Positions 19,481 to 33,311 of a stretch of 64,000 nucleotides of DNA are shown one piece after another. The stretch is from Salinicoccus carnicancri Crm. GTDB lineage: Bacteria; Bacillota; Bacilli; Staphylococcales; Salinicoccaceae. The DNA lies in NCBI RefSeq assembly GCF_000330705.1, contig NZ_ANAM01000001.1, forward strand, positions 186,001 through 250,000, read 5' to 3'. The translations under genes and the position numbers were made by a program. The notes under the pieces were generated by a model. It ran no database searches. It saw only the letters and a program-made list of their open reading frames with translations, and was not told where the DNA came from. Numbering within the stretch: the first letter of the stretch is position 1; each line of letters begins with the position of its first letter.

Positions 19481-19748
19481 TATATAAAAAGCCTTCGACA
19501 TCCCTACTGCTTTCAAACAGGATCAGGAGGACGAAAGCCCATCGCGGTACCACCTCATATTCACTGGAACATCACTGTTCCAGCCTCACACAGTATCAAT
19601 CAGTACTGTACCGCTGTATTGGGCGGACCCGCGGCATAATCAGCTGCAGCTCAGGGACCATGTTCATTTCCGCGACAATGCTGCATTTCAGCCTTAGGCA
19701 GCTCTCTGTGAATTGTCCCGGCAACTACTCATCCCATCTATGCCGTTT
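19481..19748 (-). promoter_or_regulatory. T-box riboswitch, probably methionine-specific
   Basis: On the minus strand the conserved T-box AGGTGGTACCGCG (19543-19555) is plain. Upstream lie stem I elements (GATGAGTA, then AGAGAGCTGCC and GAAATGCAGC). A candidate AUG specifier is at 19659-19661 in GAACATGGTCC. Downstream, GCTTTCG can pair with CGAAGGC, followed by a T-run just before the metI ribosome site, forming the terminator. Uncharged tRNA-Met would let metIC be read. Confidence 0.93.
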
Positions 19749-20138
19749 AAGTTTATATTTAAACTGTAAGTTTAGATTAATATACAAATTAAAATAGATA
19801 AAGTCAATGGTATTATCTGATAAATTCAAATTATCCGAAACGAAAGAATATAATGCCATGCGCACAATGAAAAACGGCAAAAATCATTTTTTTCGGCAAC
19901 ATATCCAATGCTTAACAAACATTACAAAAGCAACTGTAAAATATTTTTTTGAAACCTTTTATATCGTCCTTAAAAACCTTCATAAAGGGTTTGTATCGAA
20001 ATAAGCAACGCCGGTCGCACTATCATAACAACATCATTATAAACTGAGTTATATTATGATTTTAATAAAAGGTGGAAAAGACTGCTTATAAAAGTTATAA
20101 TATTAAATAACGATAAAATAATGGGAGACTGGTTACAT
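19749..20138. other. AT-rich intergenic region
   Basis: About 390 bases between the T-box and the RacA-like gene. It holds the metIC promoter side and the upstream region of the next gene. An open frame at 19807-20004 has no ribosome site and an unconvincing product. No terminator or known RNA family is seen. Confidence 0.5.
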
Positions 20139-25084: not shown

Positions 25085-25122
25085 AAGAAACGGGGACTGG
25101 CTTTAGCCAATCCCCGTTTCTT
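25085..25122. terminator. Bidirectional terminator between guaC and tyrA
   Basis: AAGAAACGGGGA..TGGC pairs with GCCA..TCCCCGTTTCTT around TTTA; serves both convergent genes. Confidence 0.9.
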
Positions 25123-25984
25123 ATGTCCAGTCTGATTCATCCAGGTTATGAAGGTCATGATAGCGGTGCCGTGATTCTATCATCATTTCCTGCATCGTCT
25201 CCACATCTTCGTTTTCAATGGCTTTTGTCAGCTGGTCGAGCTGCTCTTTGAAGCCGTCGATATGATTGAGAAGATGGTCTTTATTCATGATGAAGAGCTC
25301 TGGCCATAATTTCTCATTGATGTTGGTGATGCGTGTAAGATCCCTGTAGCTGTCCCCGGTATACGCTTTCGTATCCCGGTTCGTATCATCACTGTTGATG
25401 AGGGATACTGCGATGACATGCGCCAGCTGGCTGGTAAAGCCGATAACTTCATCGTGAAAGTCCGGCGTAATGGATGTCACATTCCTAAAACCGATTTCCC
25501 TGACGAATGAAGATAGCATTTCAATGTTTTCCGGTTTGTTCCCGGGCGTGGGTGTGAACAGGTAGTTCGCGCCCCGGAATACTTCACCGCTTGCGAATGA
25601 AAGACCTCTGTTCTCCCGGCCTGCCATGGGATGTCCAAAGACAAAATCGGCATTATCAGACAGTAGTGGTTCGATTTCTTCAATGATGGAGCGCTTGACT
25701 CCCGTTACATCCGTCAGTATGACATTTTCCTTGAAATAGGGAGCATATTCGGCGACCAGGGATTTCAGGATCATGGGATAGACTGAAAAAATGACCAGGT
25801 CGGCATGCGGGATGATTGATTCGGGCGTTTCATAGCCTTTTTTGATCAACCCGCTGTCTTCAGCATTCCTGAGCGATTCAGCATCGATATCAATGGCATA
25901 TACTTCATGTTCAGGTGCATTCGATTTTATGGCAAGGGCGAATGAGCCCCCGATGTTTCCGAGTCCTGCAATTACTATTTTCAT
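25121..25984 (-). CDS. tyrA: Prephenate dehydrogenase, short form without ACT domain
   Basis: Converts prephenate to 4-hydroxyphenylpyruvate for tyrosine. The NAD motif GLGNIGGSFALAI is at the N terminus, GHPMAGRENRG is the prephenate-site region, and FTSQLAHVIAVSL follows. At 287 residues it stops after the dehydrogenase core, whereas B. subtilis TyrA (about 370) carries a C-terminal ACT domain for feedback. Feedback control may therefore rest on the DAHP synthase next door. It is divergent from the aro leader. Confidence 0.92.
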   Translation of the reverse strand: MKIVIAGLGNIGGSFALAIKSNAPEHEVYAIDIDAESLRNAEDSGLIKKGYETPESIIPHADLVIFSVYPMILKSLVAEYAPYFKENVILTDVTGVKRSIIEEIEPLLSDNADFVFGHPMAGRENRGLSFASGEVFRGANYLFTPTPGNKPENIEMLSSFVREIGFRNVTSITPDFHDEVIGFTSQLAHVIAVSLINSDDTNRDTKAYTGDSYRDLTRITNINEKLWPELFIMNKDHLLNHIDGFKEQLDQLTKAIENEDVETMQEMMIESRHRYHDLHNLDESDWT

Positions 25985-26068: not shown

Positions 26069-26097
26069 TTGACAAAGCAATATGGCTGCTATATAAT
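26069..26097 (+). promoter_or_regulatory. Consensus promoter of the DAHP synthase operon
   Basis: Perfect TTGACA (26069-26074), a 17-base spacer and perfect TATAAT (26092-26097). Transcription should start near 26104, giving a leader of about 290 bases. The strongest promoter in the window by eye. Confidence 0.85.
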
Positions 26098-26131
26098 TGC
26101 TCTCAACACATCTCAAAAGAGGCGATTATAT

Positions 26132-26185
26132 ATGTTACTCACTAAACAACAACAGCATAATCGATTTTACTTTAGCTATTTTTGA
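26132..26185 (+). CDS. Leader peptide rich in Phe and Tyr (17 residues)
   Basis: A tiny frame 28 bases into the predicted transcript, with AGAGG at proper spacing. It encodes MLLTKQQQHNRFYFSYF and a UGA stop. The last six codons are Phe-Tyr-Phe-Ser-Tyr-Phe. This is the composition expected of an attenuation sensor: ribosomes would stall when charged tRNA-Phe or tRNA-Tyr is scarce. It directly precedes a cascade of alternative hairpins and a terminator ahead of DAHP synthase. The function is inferred from position and design. Confidence 0.75.
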   Translation: MLLTKQQQHNRFYFSYF

Positions 26186-26188
26186 TAC

Positions 26189-26372
26189 CGTTTGTACCCA
26201 TCACATTGAGTACAAACGTAAAACGAACCTTTATGTTTGTATCAAGTGATGGCTAAAGCATTTTGTGATGTCTAGCCATTTATCCTAAATAAGTGGCTAG
26301 AGTACCTGTATATTATTTTATAAACTCCACCGCCACTTATTTAAGATATAAGTGGCGGTTTTATTATTATCA
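26189..26372 (+). promoter_or_regulatory. Attenuator with mutually exclusive hairpins and terminator
   Basis: Pairings that exclude one another: (1) CGTTTGTAC 26189-26197 with GTACAAACG 26210-26218; (2) CCATCAC..GTACAAAC 26198-26217 with GTTTGTAT..GTGATGG 26235-26252; (3) ATGGCTA 26249-26255 with TAGCCAT 26273-26279; (4) CTAGCCATTTAT 26272-26283 with ATAAGTGGCTAG 26289-26300; (5) antiterminator AAATAAGTGGC 26287-26297 with GCCACTTATTT 26332-26342; (6) terminator ACCGCCACTTAT 26329-26340 with ATAAGTGGCGGT 26348-26359 and a T-run. It contains no T-box sequence. Pairings 5 and 6 compete directly. Confidence 0.78.
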
Positions 26373-26396
26373 AAATTTAATGGGAGGTTTTATTTT

Positions 26397-27434
26397 ATGA
26401 TTATTCACGTAAAGCAGGGCGCACGGGAACAAGAGATTCAGGAGTTGACGGCAAATATTGAGGAGGCAGGTTTCGAGGTCCATCGTTCAGACGGTAAGAA
26501 CCGTACCATCATCGGGCTGATCGGCGATACTTCGAAAATTACAGAAAACGACATGAAGAGATTCCAGATAGTAGAGGATGCACACCGTATTTCGGCACCG
26601 TACAAAAAGGCGAATCGCCATTTTCATGAAGACGACAGCATAATCGATATAGATGGTGTGAAAGTAGGGGCTGAGAATTTCATGGTATGTGCTGGCCCAT
26701 GTTCAGTAGAGAATGAAGAAGATACGGTGGCTCTCGCAAAACGCCTGAAAGCTGCCGGAGCGAATACATTAAGAGGCGGTGCATTCAAACCGAGGACATC
26801 CCCTTATGCTTTCCAGGGACTTGGAGTTGAAGGCCTGCGCATTCTTCAGACTGCCAAGCAGGAAACAGGTCTGCCGGTAGTATCTGAGTTGATGTCAACG
26901 GAGTACCTCGATGATTTTGTCGAAATGGTGGATGTCATCCAGATCGGTGCACGCAATATGCAGAATTTCGACCTGCTGAAGGCAATAGGTAAGACGGATA
27001 AACCGGTCCTGTTGAAGCGCGGCATGTCAGCAACGATGAAAGAGTGGCTGATGTCCGCCGAGTACGTCATGGCGGGCGGAAATGAAAATGTCATCTTCTG
27101 TGAGCGCGGAATCCGTACATTTGAAACGGCAACAAGAAACACGCTCGATTTGCAGACAGTGCCGGTAATCCAGAAAGAATCCCACCTTCCCATAGTGATA
27201 GATCCATCCCATGCTGCGGGAATCAGACACATCATCCCTTCCATGGCGAAGGCAGCAGTGATGTCCGGTGCGAATGGCCTGCAGATAGAAGTGCACCAGG
27301 ATCCTGAAAATGCATGGAGTGACGGCCAGCAGTGCCTGACACCTGATGAGTTCGATGAACTGATGACAACCATCAACATGCTTCTTGAAATCGAGAAAAA
27401 GAAGACCGGTATGGAAGCGATCGTTCAGAAATAG
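26397..27434 (+). CDS. 3-deoxy-7-phosphoheptulonate synthase (DAHP synthase), type I-beta
   Basis: First step of the shikimate pathway: PEP plus erythrose 4-phosphate gives DAHP. Residues about 1-70 form a ferredoxin-like (ACT-like) regulatory domain as in the Thermotoga enzyme, known there to bind Tyr/Phe. The barrel follows, with the metal Cys in VCAGPCSVE (near residue 100), [20 protein letters not shown] and IDPSHAAG. The AUG at 26397 has GGGAGG upstream. Unlike B. subtilis AroA, it has no fused chorismate mutase; a separate one follows 20 bases later. Confidence 0.93.
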
Positions 27435-27454
27435 GAATTGAAGGAGGGATGCCA

Positions 27455-27751
27455 ATGGAATCGCATGACAAACTCAGGACCAGGATTGATGACATCGACC
27501 GGGAACTTGTGGAGCTGTTTGAGGCCAGAATGCGTGTATCTTCGGAGATAGCGGAGTATAAACAGAAGAATGATATTCCAATCTTCGATGAAGCAAGGGA
27601 AGAGGAAGTCGTTGAGAAGAATGTGGGAAGACTGACAGACAAAACTCTGGAACGGCATGCAGATTCATTTTTCAGACATCTGATGGCACTCTCCAGGAAA
27701 AGACAGCATGAAAATCACAAAAATTACAAATCTCCCATTAACAATATATAG
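27455..27751 (+). CDS. Chorismate mutase, AroQ class
   Basis: Short all-helical protein (98 residues) that would turn chorismate into prephenate for Phe and Tyr. The first helix LRTRIDDIDRELVELFEARM and the following ISSEIAEYKQK-like stretch are the AroQ active-site helix pattern (Arg, Lys and Glu positions kept). GAAGGAGGG precedes; the AUG at 27455 is at better spacing than the one at 27449. Cotranscribed with DAHP synthase and ended by a terminator. Confidence 0.9.
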   Translation: MESHDKLRTRIDDIDRELVELFEARMRVSSEIAEYKQKNDIPIFDEAREEEVVEKNVGRLTDKTLERHADSFFRHLMALSRKRQHENHKNYKSPINNI

Positions 27752-30105: not shown

Positions 30106-30244
30106 ATAAAAAAGAGCCTTCCTTTTTAAAGATAAGGAGACTCCCGTGTCACTCATCTTTCAGGAAAAAACCTGCTGGAGTTAGCACCTTACTGAAAAGG
30201 TTGCCGGGTTTCTCAGGGCCAGTCCCTCCACCGCTCTTGATAAG
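30106..30244 (-). promoter_or_regulatory. SAM-I (S-box) riboswitch controlling metYA
   Basis: On the minus strand the full S-box core reads in order: CTTATCAAGAGCGGTGGAGG, GGCCCTGAGAAACCCGGCAACC, AAGGTGCTAACTCCAGCA, and GAAAGATGAG. A terminator hairpin (GAGTCTCCTT with AAGGAAGGCTC) and a T6 run follow, 26 bases before metY. SAM should switch transcription off. Confidence 0.97.
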
Positions 30245-30349
30245 TAATTATTTAATTGAATATCATCTTACTAACTTCTTTCAGATTTGTCAAACACTTT
30301 TAAACATTAAGACAAATGAGTTTTGTGTAAGTTTACAGAGGGAGACGAT

Positions 30350-33084: not shown

Positions 33085-33186
33085 CTATATATCACTCCTG
33101 TTTATATGCGTTCTTAATATAAGGTACCCGTTATCTTGTATTTCTAAAGAAAATATATTAAGATGAAACTAAGTGAATACCAAATG

Positions 33187-33311
33187 TCCCCTAGGGTTCC
33201 GCTGCTTCTGCAGGCCAGGTCCGAGAGGGGGCTCATGGCATGCTGCCATGTCACGGAGGGAAAAAAGCCCGGGAGAGAATTATATTCTCATCCCGGGCTT
33301 TTTATATTATT
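33187..33311 (+). promoter_or_regulatory. Guanidine-I (ykkC) riboswitch
   Basis: The conserved core is present in order: CTAGGGTTCCG, GGTCCGAGAG, and CACGGAGGGAAAAAAGCCCGGGAGA. The GCCCGGGA then pairs with TCCCGGGC before a T-run, forming the expression-platform terminator. It lies directly ahead of the SMR pair. Guanidinium should relieve termination. Confidence 0.95.

Follow-up and report, generated by a model that had tools for sequence, protein, structure and literature searches.

The leader preceding the DAHP synthase gene in the window (the whole 64,000-nucleotide stretch of Salinicoccus carnicancri Crm DNA that was analysed, to which all coordinates below refer) is very probably a ribosome-read transcription attenuator acting on the first enzyme of aromatic synthesis, and one of a homologous family of such leaders in the Bacilli. 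This reading is based on the anatomy of the leader, its conservation, the covariation of helices S0, S1 and S2, and the dependence of a further helix, S3, on the ribosome when transcripts are folded to 26285. The leader most likely works by the classical mechanism, with a likely sensor, helix S0, that is built from the leader codons themselves. The sequence further predicts that the leader is transcribed and translated, that S3 relays to the terminator in time and that Phe/Tyr supply is what it responds to; a response to both amino acids is suggested by the codons.

A sigma-70 type promoter, TTGACA-17-TATAAT, has been identified at 26069-26097 on the forward strand, matching the consensus at 12 of 12 positions, and transcription would be expected to start near 26104. 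All 29 rows of the family alignment share the first hexamer, and L004 is the only locus in which the second deviates. About 290 nt of leader lie between this promoter and the DAHP synthase gene. The leader contains a ribosome binding site, AGAGGCG (26118-26124, forward strand), with a G-rich ribosome site at the equivalent place in the relatives' leaders, and then the open reading frame MLLTKQQQHNRFYFSYF (26132-26185, forward strand), which has 17 codons and a UGA stop; five of its last six codons specify Phe or Tyr, and the peptide ends in RFYFSYF. A short Phe/Tyr-rich ORF with its ribosome site thus sits between promoter and terminator, as in an attenuator. Promoter, ribosome site and leader ORF are all present as the initial annotation described them. 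Downstream on the same strand lie the presumably regulated gene for a type I DAHP synthase (26397-27434; PF00793, NF006421), 98% identical to its S. sediminis counterpart (L022), and a chorismate mutase gene (27449-27751; PF01817, TIGR01805), the second of a presumed operon. A prephenate dehydrogenase gene, identified by gene reading and profile searches, lies at 25121-25984 on the reverse strand, in the opposite direction to the leader.

Eight helices, all on the forward strand, are drawn in the leader. S00, found by folding (26108-26118 with 26261-26271; 10 bp with a T-T mismatch at the sixth position), links the transcript start with the S3 region; 8-10 of its 10 pairs are kept in all 29 family leaders, one pair being UA in 16, CG in 12 and UG in 1. 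S0 (26170-26188 with 26239-26258; 19 bp and one bulge) emerges both from folding and from covariation over 56 distinct sequences. Its 5' arm is made up of the aromatic codons TTT-AGC-TAT-TTT and the stop codon, its 3' arm is GTATCAAGTGATGGCTAAAG (26239-26258), and the bulge separates its outer half (26170-26180) from its inner half (26181-26188). Next come the S1 hairpin (26189-26218, pairing 26189-26197 with 26210-26218; -12.8 kcal/mol), which keeps 9 bp or more in every one of the 29 leaders, and S2 (26198-26252, pairing 26198-26220 with 26232-26252; -22.5 kcal/mol), found by folding and covariation. The S3 hairpin (26248-26280; -13.2 kcal/mol) is present in 29 of 29 family leaders but has little backing elsewhere, being supported in just 6 of 33 loci outside the close aroG set. 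The S4 hairpin, from folding (26271-26301; -16.8 kcal/mol), holds one strand of the antiterminator S5 (26286-26343, pairing 26286-26297 with 26332-26343; -14.1 kcal/mol), which was identified by folding and comparison with shuffles. The intrinsic terminator S6 (26329-26359; -19.3 kcal/mol) was the one found by a terminator search for which shuffles gave a mean of 0.2, and it is followed by the tail TTTATTATTA (26360-26369).

These helices exclude one another in a chain. S0 encloses S1; S2 is incompatible with S1 and with inner S0, and S3 with outer S0; further 3', S3 excludes S4, S4 excludes S5 and S5 excludes the terminator S6, giving the series of mutually exclusive helices ending in a terminator/antiterminator choice that is typical of an attenuator. 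The exclusive hairpins, antiterminator and terminator of the initial annotation correspond to S1-S6, all present with coordinates that agree within one base; the main helix S0, together with S00, had been overlooked. RNA folding, which had been proposed as a check, places 26104-26370 at z -7.84 below shuffles (0 of 200). Before the terminator closes, the competing combinations have calculated energies of -43.0 kcal/mol (S0+S1+S4), -40.3 (S1+inner S0+S3+S5), -38.1 (S2+S4) and -36.1 (S2+S5).

In the proposed switch, the codons of a leader that is untranslated or just vacated would pair with 26239-26258 to form S0 and block S3; S4 would then keep the antiterminator strand and S6 would form, leaving the gene off. 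When Phe or Tyr is scarce, a ribosome stalled on F12-Y13-F14 would mask outer S0, while inner S0 and S1 would persist and hold 26239-26246 from S2; S3 would form, S4 would be lost, S5 would form and the terminator would be blocked, turning the gene on. With Phe and Tyr both plentiful, a ribosome pausing at the UGA would break S1, so that S2 would form and S3 would be weakened, or, if the ribosome left, S0 would reform, the gene being off in either case. The preferred route has the S0 codons masked by the ribosome during a stall, with S0 reforming once a ribosome has finished and left. This three-state logic, with control codons within a helix arm, is also that of E. coli pheL and trpL, which have fewer relay helices than the window leader.

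The ribosome was represented in folding calculations by holding the RNA 5' of its edge, set at P+12 or P+15, single-stranded. With no ribosome, transcripts to 26285 give 1.0 for S0 and 0.0 for S3. A stall on F12-F14 (P+12) gives 0.77-0.83 for inner S0, 0.90-0.96 for S1 and 0.90-0.97 for S3, the F14 stall being weaker at edge P+15 (0.12, 0.64 and 0.89, respectively), and a ribosome at the stop gives 0 for S1, 0.60 for S2 and 0.80 for S3. The same is seen across the family: in each of the 29 leaders S3 stands at 0.00 without a ribosome and at 0.82-0.98 when one stalls on the two codons preceding Ser, while with a ribosome at the stop S2 has a mean of 0.67 (0 to 0.79, L115 having no S2 in this state) and S3 is still 0.54-0.91. 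S1 is the first helix to form, reaching 1.0 at transcript end 26230. At 26262, contrary to the model, S2 dominates on a stall (0.98-1.0; edge P+12), and the model then requires S1 and inner S0 to persist in time; kinetically, S1 would need to outlast S2. At 26306, S2 and S4 dominate in all six stall/stop states tried (S2 0.98-1.0, S4 1.0). At 26345, S5 stands at 0.97 with no ribosome, 0.54-0.65 on F12-F14, 0.34 at Y16 and 0.95 at the stop, which is the wrong order for the model, and at 26362 every state has the terminator formed (0.98). Because the equilibrium folds go partly against the terminator choice, that choice would have to be kinetic; of all the steps, the S0/S3 step alone tracks ribosome position in these calculations. 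Equilibrium folding was rejected as proof of the switch, as the longer transcripts do not show the terminator choice and partly contradict it.

Within the Salinicoccus family (f1), DAHP synthase is found in 33 of 33 genomes and the leader in 30 of 33, using a covariance model, R1, built from 21 f1 leaders; the three of the 33 in which R1 did not find it (L118, L119, L121) belong to genus g5. Twenty-nine leaders were aligned (A1) and the thirtieth, L122, was handled separately. The aligned peptides end in YFSYF in 27 of 29 and in YFGYY in the other 2. Identity is 97.4% over the core codons and stop, 56.3% over codons 2-10, 50.4% in the S4-S5 linker and 46.7% in the S6 loop, compared with 47.4% at third positions and 40.5% at fourfold sites in the aroG genes of these genomes. 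In Phe/Tyr codons the third base is 98.2% identical in the leader core versus 72.7% in aroG, and Phe is encoded by TTC 257 times versus TTT 56 times in aroG, while the leader core has TTT in 29 of 29. Since the core is far more conserved than the silent sites of aroG and the bias against TTT is reversed, a constraint on the RNA besides the peptide is indicated; the 97% identity of the core is explained by its codons forming the covarying helix S0. The aromatic codons and the pairings are kept and the flanking codons and linkers vary, the pattern that the initial annotation had named as support for its proposal.

The arms of all eight helices can be paired at 8 bp or more in 29 of 29 leaders, a count made with no shuffled control, and many helix pairs are invariant within this close set. 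For S00+S0+S1+S4+S6 taken together, the family alignment has 27 double-change cells versus 9.7 in shuffles (0 of 500 as high), with pair types not in excess (500 of 500 shuffles as high); for S2+S4+S6 there are 20 versus 7.8 (0 of 500). No measure of covariation for S1+S3+S5 exceeds shuffles in this alignment, so S3 and S5 are without covariation support of their own in the family set. The separate leader L122, from genus g2, stands before a DAHP synthase that is 60% identical and reads MQHIHLTTTQSFYFSYFR; it folds with z -9.29 and retains S0-S6 with 15, 12, 18, 12, 17, 15 and 18 bp, respectively, the sequence of S4-S6 being unrelated to that of the window leader. Where the window has UGA this leader has AGA, with a T in place of A in the 3' arm to match; S00 was not seen in it by eye.

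R1 also matches 34 of 398 genomes of the class, at 43 sites in 11 of 146 genera. With three of the 34 being Salinicoccus, 31 are from outside the family, and the idea of a leader private to the family was overturned. A second model, R2, built from 57 cores with the R1 sites included, matches the same 34 genomes at 44 sites; genus g41 accounts for many of the class matches. In the order, 33 of 157 genomes are matched. Of these, 30 belong to f1 and 3 to f3; there is none from f4, whose many genomes are most likely Staphylococcus and its near kin. Among 67 named DAHP-synthase loci outside the family R1 found no match. The family also overlaps Rfam RF02863 (sRNA_2410), which matches 19 of 200 genomes of the class at E 0.001, five of them above its cut-off, and 0 of 14 control genomes; 25 of the 26 sites listed coincide with R1 sites. 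On the window leader RF02863 matches 26172-26372 with 55.9 bits (E 2.1e-8), the sole match in its own genome at E 0.001, as against a gathering cut-off of 61 bits, which is passed by four of the six relatives given, the four being aroE leaders. By these matches the window leader is judged homologous to RF02863, yet it is no member by Rfam's own rule. Anatomy and conservation lend good support to the ribosome-mediated Phe/Tyr attenuation of the initial annotation; the likely sensor S0 was missed there and the homologous family not recognised.

The genes 3' of the sites encode DAHP synthase (30, all f1), the pheA product (18, all f1, including a second site in the window's own genome, L151), the aroE product (8) and a TrpX-like ABC substrate-binding protein (29), with single cases of transketolase (L158), a class I/II aminotransferase (L231), a sodium symporter (L186) and a polar amino-acid ABC permease (L200). 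Profile search confirmed one to three genes of each kind, and the others were assigned by reading, with the gene at L176 excluded; those confirmed include L136 (aroE), L151 and L152 (pheA), L158, L231, L186 and L200. Every site whose downstream gene was read lies on the same strand as that gene, before a gene of aromatic synthesis or precursor supply or for an aminotransferase or transporter. The TrpX-like proteins at L135, L140 and L160 match PF04392 and score 296-339 bits on the TrpX profile versus a cut-off of 390. For the L200 permease the top named matches are cystine and ectoine permeases, with HisM and HisQ lower, and no profile but the general permease domain is above cut-off. By eye, the S4-like hairpin of the pheA leaders L152 and L153 has a T-run of its own, and these leaders may have two tandem terminators.

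Across the wider alignment (A5; 57 rows, 56 distinct, with redundant rows removed beforehand and L181-L200 outside it), 93.8% of the cells of S0+S1 are paired over the 56 distinct sequences, versus 35-43% in slid controls. Double changes are seen in 12 pairs and 77 cells, against 7.1 and 25.3 in shuffles, and 0 of 500 shuffles are as high on any of five measures. The S0 changes fall within codons: column pair 11:112 is UA in 36 rows, CG in 10 and UG in 9; 10:113 is UA in 44, UG in 7 and AU in 5; and 22:101, at the change from stop to Arg, is AU in 35 and UA in 21. The end pairs fail, the innermost (27:96) in 32 rows and the outermost (8:115) in 13. For S2 there are 19 double-change cells against 4.6 in shuffles (0 of 500). 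As kinship alone can push covariation above shuffles, the slid controls and codon-linked changes weigh more. The downstream helices were scored in 54 of the 57 loci with 100 shuffles per locus. S5 was matched or beaten by at most 5 of 100 shuffles in 46 of 54 (21 of 21 close aroG loci, 25 of 33 others), and S4 reached the same level in 38 of 54 (19 of 21 and 19 of 33). S3 did so at at most 10 of 100 shuffles in 27 of 54 (21 of 21 and 6 of 33). The terminator chosen for scoring at L135 and L160 was weak.

The codons follow the gene. Counting the three codons before Ser in the 57 cores, aroE leaders have YYF in 8 of 8 and pheA leaders FFF in 5 of 5, the 22 aroG leaders have FYF (12), LYF (7), YYF (2) and SYF (1), and the 21 transporter rows (a label given by default, L176 included) have FYF in 11. 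Over all 18 pheA sites, which come from only two genera and are not independent, the three codons are FFF in 14, DFF in 2, FFI in 1 and LFF in 1; Tyr is absent from them in 18 of 18, though it does appear downstream of the Ser and, in some leaders, also further towards the N-terminus. Before a TrpX-like gene, L198 and L199 have YYYSYY. L186, matched by RF02863 and absent from the R1 and R2 lists, has IWYSYRR before the sodium symporter, and L200 has RHHHSHS before the polar amino-acid permease; these two are single cases with modest E-values (1.6e-4 with RF02863 and 5.1e-4 with R1, respectively). Both can still form the S0 duplex (-23.2 and -17.8 kcal/mol, calculated with no control). The TrpX-like proteins at L135, L140 and L160 carry Phe/Tyr leaders and not Trp ones, and may possibly be Phe or Tyr transporters; the trpX of S. 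suis is described as being under Trp T-box control (PMC9382623), which leaves room for Phe/Tyr-type relatives under an aromatic leader.

Together these data make it probable, at a somewhat lower level than the attenuator reading of the window leader itself, that a single homologous scaffold serves in the Bacilli as a recodable, ribosome-read amino-acid sensor, its codons forming one strand of the switch helix and having been recoded, with compensating downstream changes, for Phe (pheA), Phe and Tyr (DAHP synthase), a Tyr-rich set (aroE, transporter), Trp/Tyr (one sodium symporter) and His (one permease), and that RF02863 should be re-filed as a cis-regulator. The scaffold precedes eight kinds of gene, four of which have a single case each, with codons suited to them. 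If the reading holds, this would be the leader-peptide counterpart of the T-box, the codons would predict which amino acids unassigned transporters carry, the classification of an Rfam family would be corrected, and there would be a natural series in which to study the joint evolution of codons and RNA pairing.

The C-terminal peptide, with its Ser and often a final Arg, is constant across many genera, and such constancy would also suit an arrest peptide of the TnaC type, with nascent YFSYF(R) stalling the ribosome on a free amino acid and not on starvation for charged tRNA. This is unlikely, however, as the peptide varies with the gene (FFF, YYF, HHHSHS, IWYSYRR) on a constant scaffold, and the codons for Ser (AGC) and Arg (AGA) belong to the S0 strands, which explains their constancy without arrest. 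Direct binding of tRNA (as in a T-box), a TRAP-like protein or a metabolite, with no part for translation, is scarcely credible: the codon content follows the gene, which is needless for such sensors, the T-box model RF00230 has no match at the leader, and TRAP (PF02081) is absent from 33 of 33 family genomes in a search whose positive control matched in B. subtilis, though this genome has many T-boxes (15 matches at E 0.001) and a T-box stands before the DAHP synthase of Selenomonas ruminantium (L076). The initial annotation was right to see neither a T-box nor a TRAP signature here, no Rfam match to such being found at the leader.

It is also quite improbable that these sites are genes of a trans-acting small RNA, as which Rfam files sRNA_2410 (RF02863 is typed 'Gene; sRNA'), a homologous RNA. 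That filing agrees with the discrete 195-nt RNA reported for E. faecium, where a Northern blot showed two transcripts (PMC5593968); a terminated leader would, however, yield an identical band, and the sites whose gene was read all precede amino-acid-related genes on the same strand. An additional role in trans would be conceivable. The words aroE, shikimate and leader are absent from the main text of that report. We infer that the short sRNA_2410 of E. faecium is a terminated leader, and an RNA catalogued as an sRNA of unknown role is probably, on the ribosome-read reading preferred here, a family of amino-acid sensors.

Leader-peptide attenuators have usually been seen as separate inventions of each operon, and the Firmicutes as T-box territory. 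The initial suggestion that control of Phe and Tyr through one peptide might be undescribed does not hold as worded, as a Phe-Tyr-Phe leader in C. glutamicum and His and Leu attenuators in Firmicutes have already been published (PMC4046766, PMC11802643, PMC2965389, PMC9413887, PMC5794164). The C. glutamicum aroR-aroF system is like the window in having a Phe-Tyr-Phe leader before DAHP synthase, with ribosome-mediated attenuation (PMC4046766); compared by its description, it differs in belonging to an Actinobacterium and in a Phe-only response, being reported as induced by Phe limitation with Tyr without effect (PMC11802643). The S. aureus ilv-leu operon, from the NCBI family Staphylococcaceae shared with Salinicoccus, is described as having leader-peptide attenuation, but with Leu/Ile codons and an antiterminator that pairs with the poly-U tail (PMC5794164). 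The Firmicute His leaders have a similar codon-run ORF, terminator and antiterminator, but concern His genes, and the accounts cited make no link to aromatic leaders in what they were seen to contain (PMC2965389, PMC9413887). The uORFC-13-1 motif before aroF, again by its description, has an upstream ORF with a Phe codon, a terminator and a DAHP synthase gene as here, and is given as confined to Acholeplasma and environmental sequences (PMC8632094); scanning the window with Rfam gave no match of that name. Putative attenuators before aro operons, including those of E. faecalis, L. lactis and S. pneumoniae, appear in a database-derived list (PMC1173090), and in the literature on Salinicoccus leader peptides only His was found. 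Within the literature searched, what is new is a helix S0 built from codons, homology that extends over many genes and genera, the fit between codons and gene, and the likely re-filing of RF02863.

The pattern FYFSYF* was tried as a class-wide finder and rejected, as it hit 7 of 299 genomes with 3 true leaders; the others are within or opposite another ORF (L128-L130) or have no listed ORF or leader context (L124). In a further locus, L069 (Bacillota MAG31, about 1150-1290), where R1 has no match, an ORF, MMHTTFAAEYGYYYFYFTGRSQ, was seen by eye upstream of DAHP synthase, followed by a hairpin and T-run, and is perhaps an aromatic attenuator in its own right. In four Salinicoccus genomes (L017, L019, L020, L021) the second DAHP synthase is listed with one TAA inside the match, which is absent from the five other second copies listed. 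Elsewhere in the window, one of the 15 T-boxes of the genome lies at 19524-19749 on the reverse strand (80.2 bits, under the Rfam cut-off of 93), before two Met-type genes that by reading resemble the cystathionine synthase/lyase type, and a SAM riboswitch (30150-30246, reverse strand) and a guanidine-I riboswitch (33180-33277, forward strand) are both above their Rfam cut-offs.
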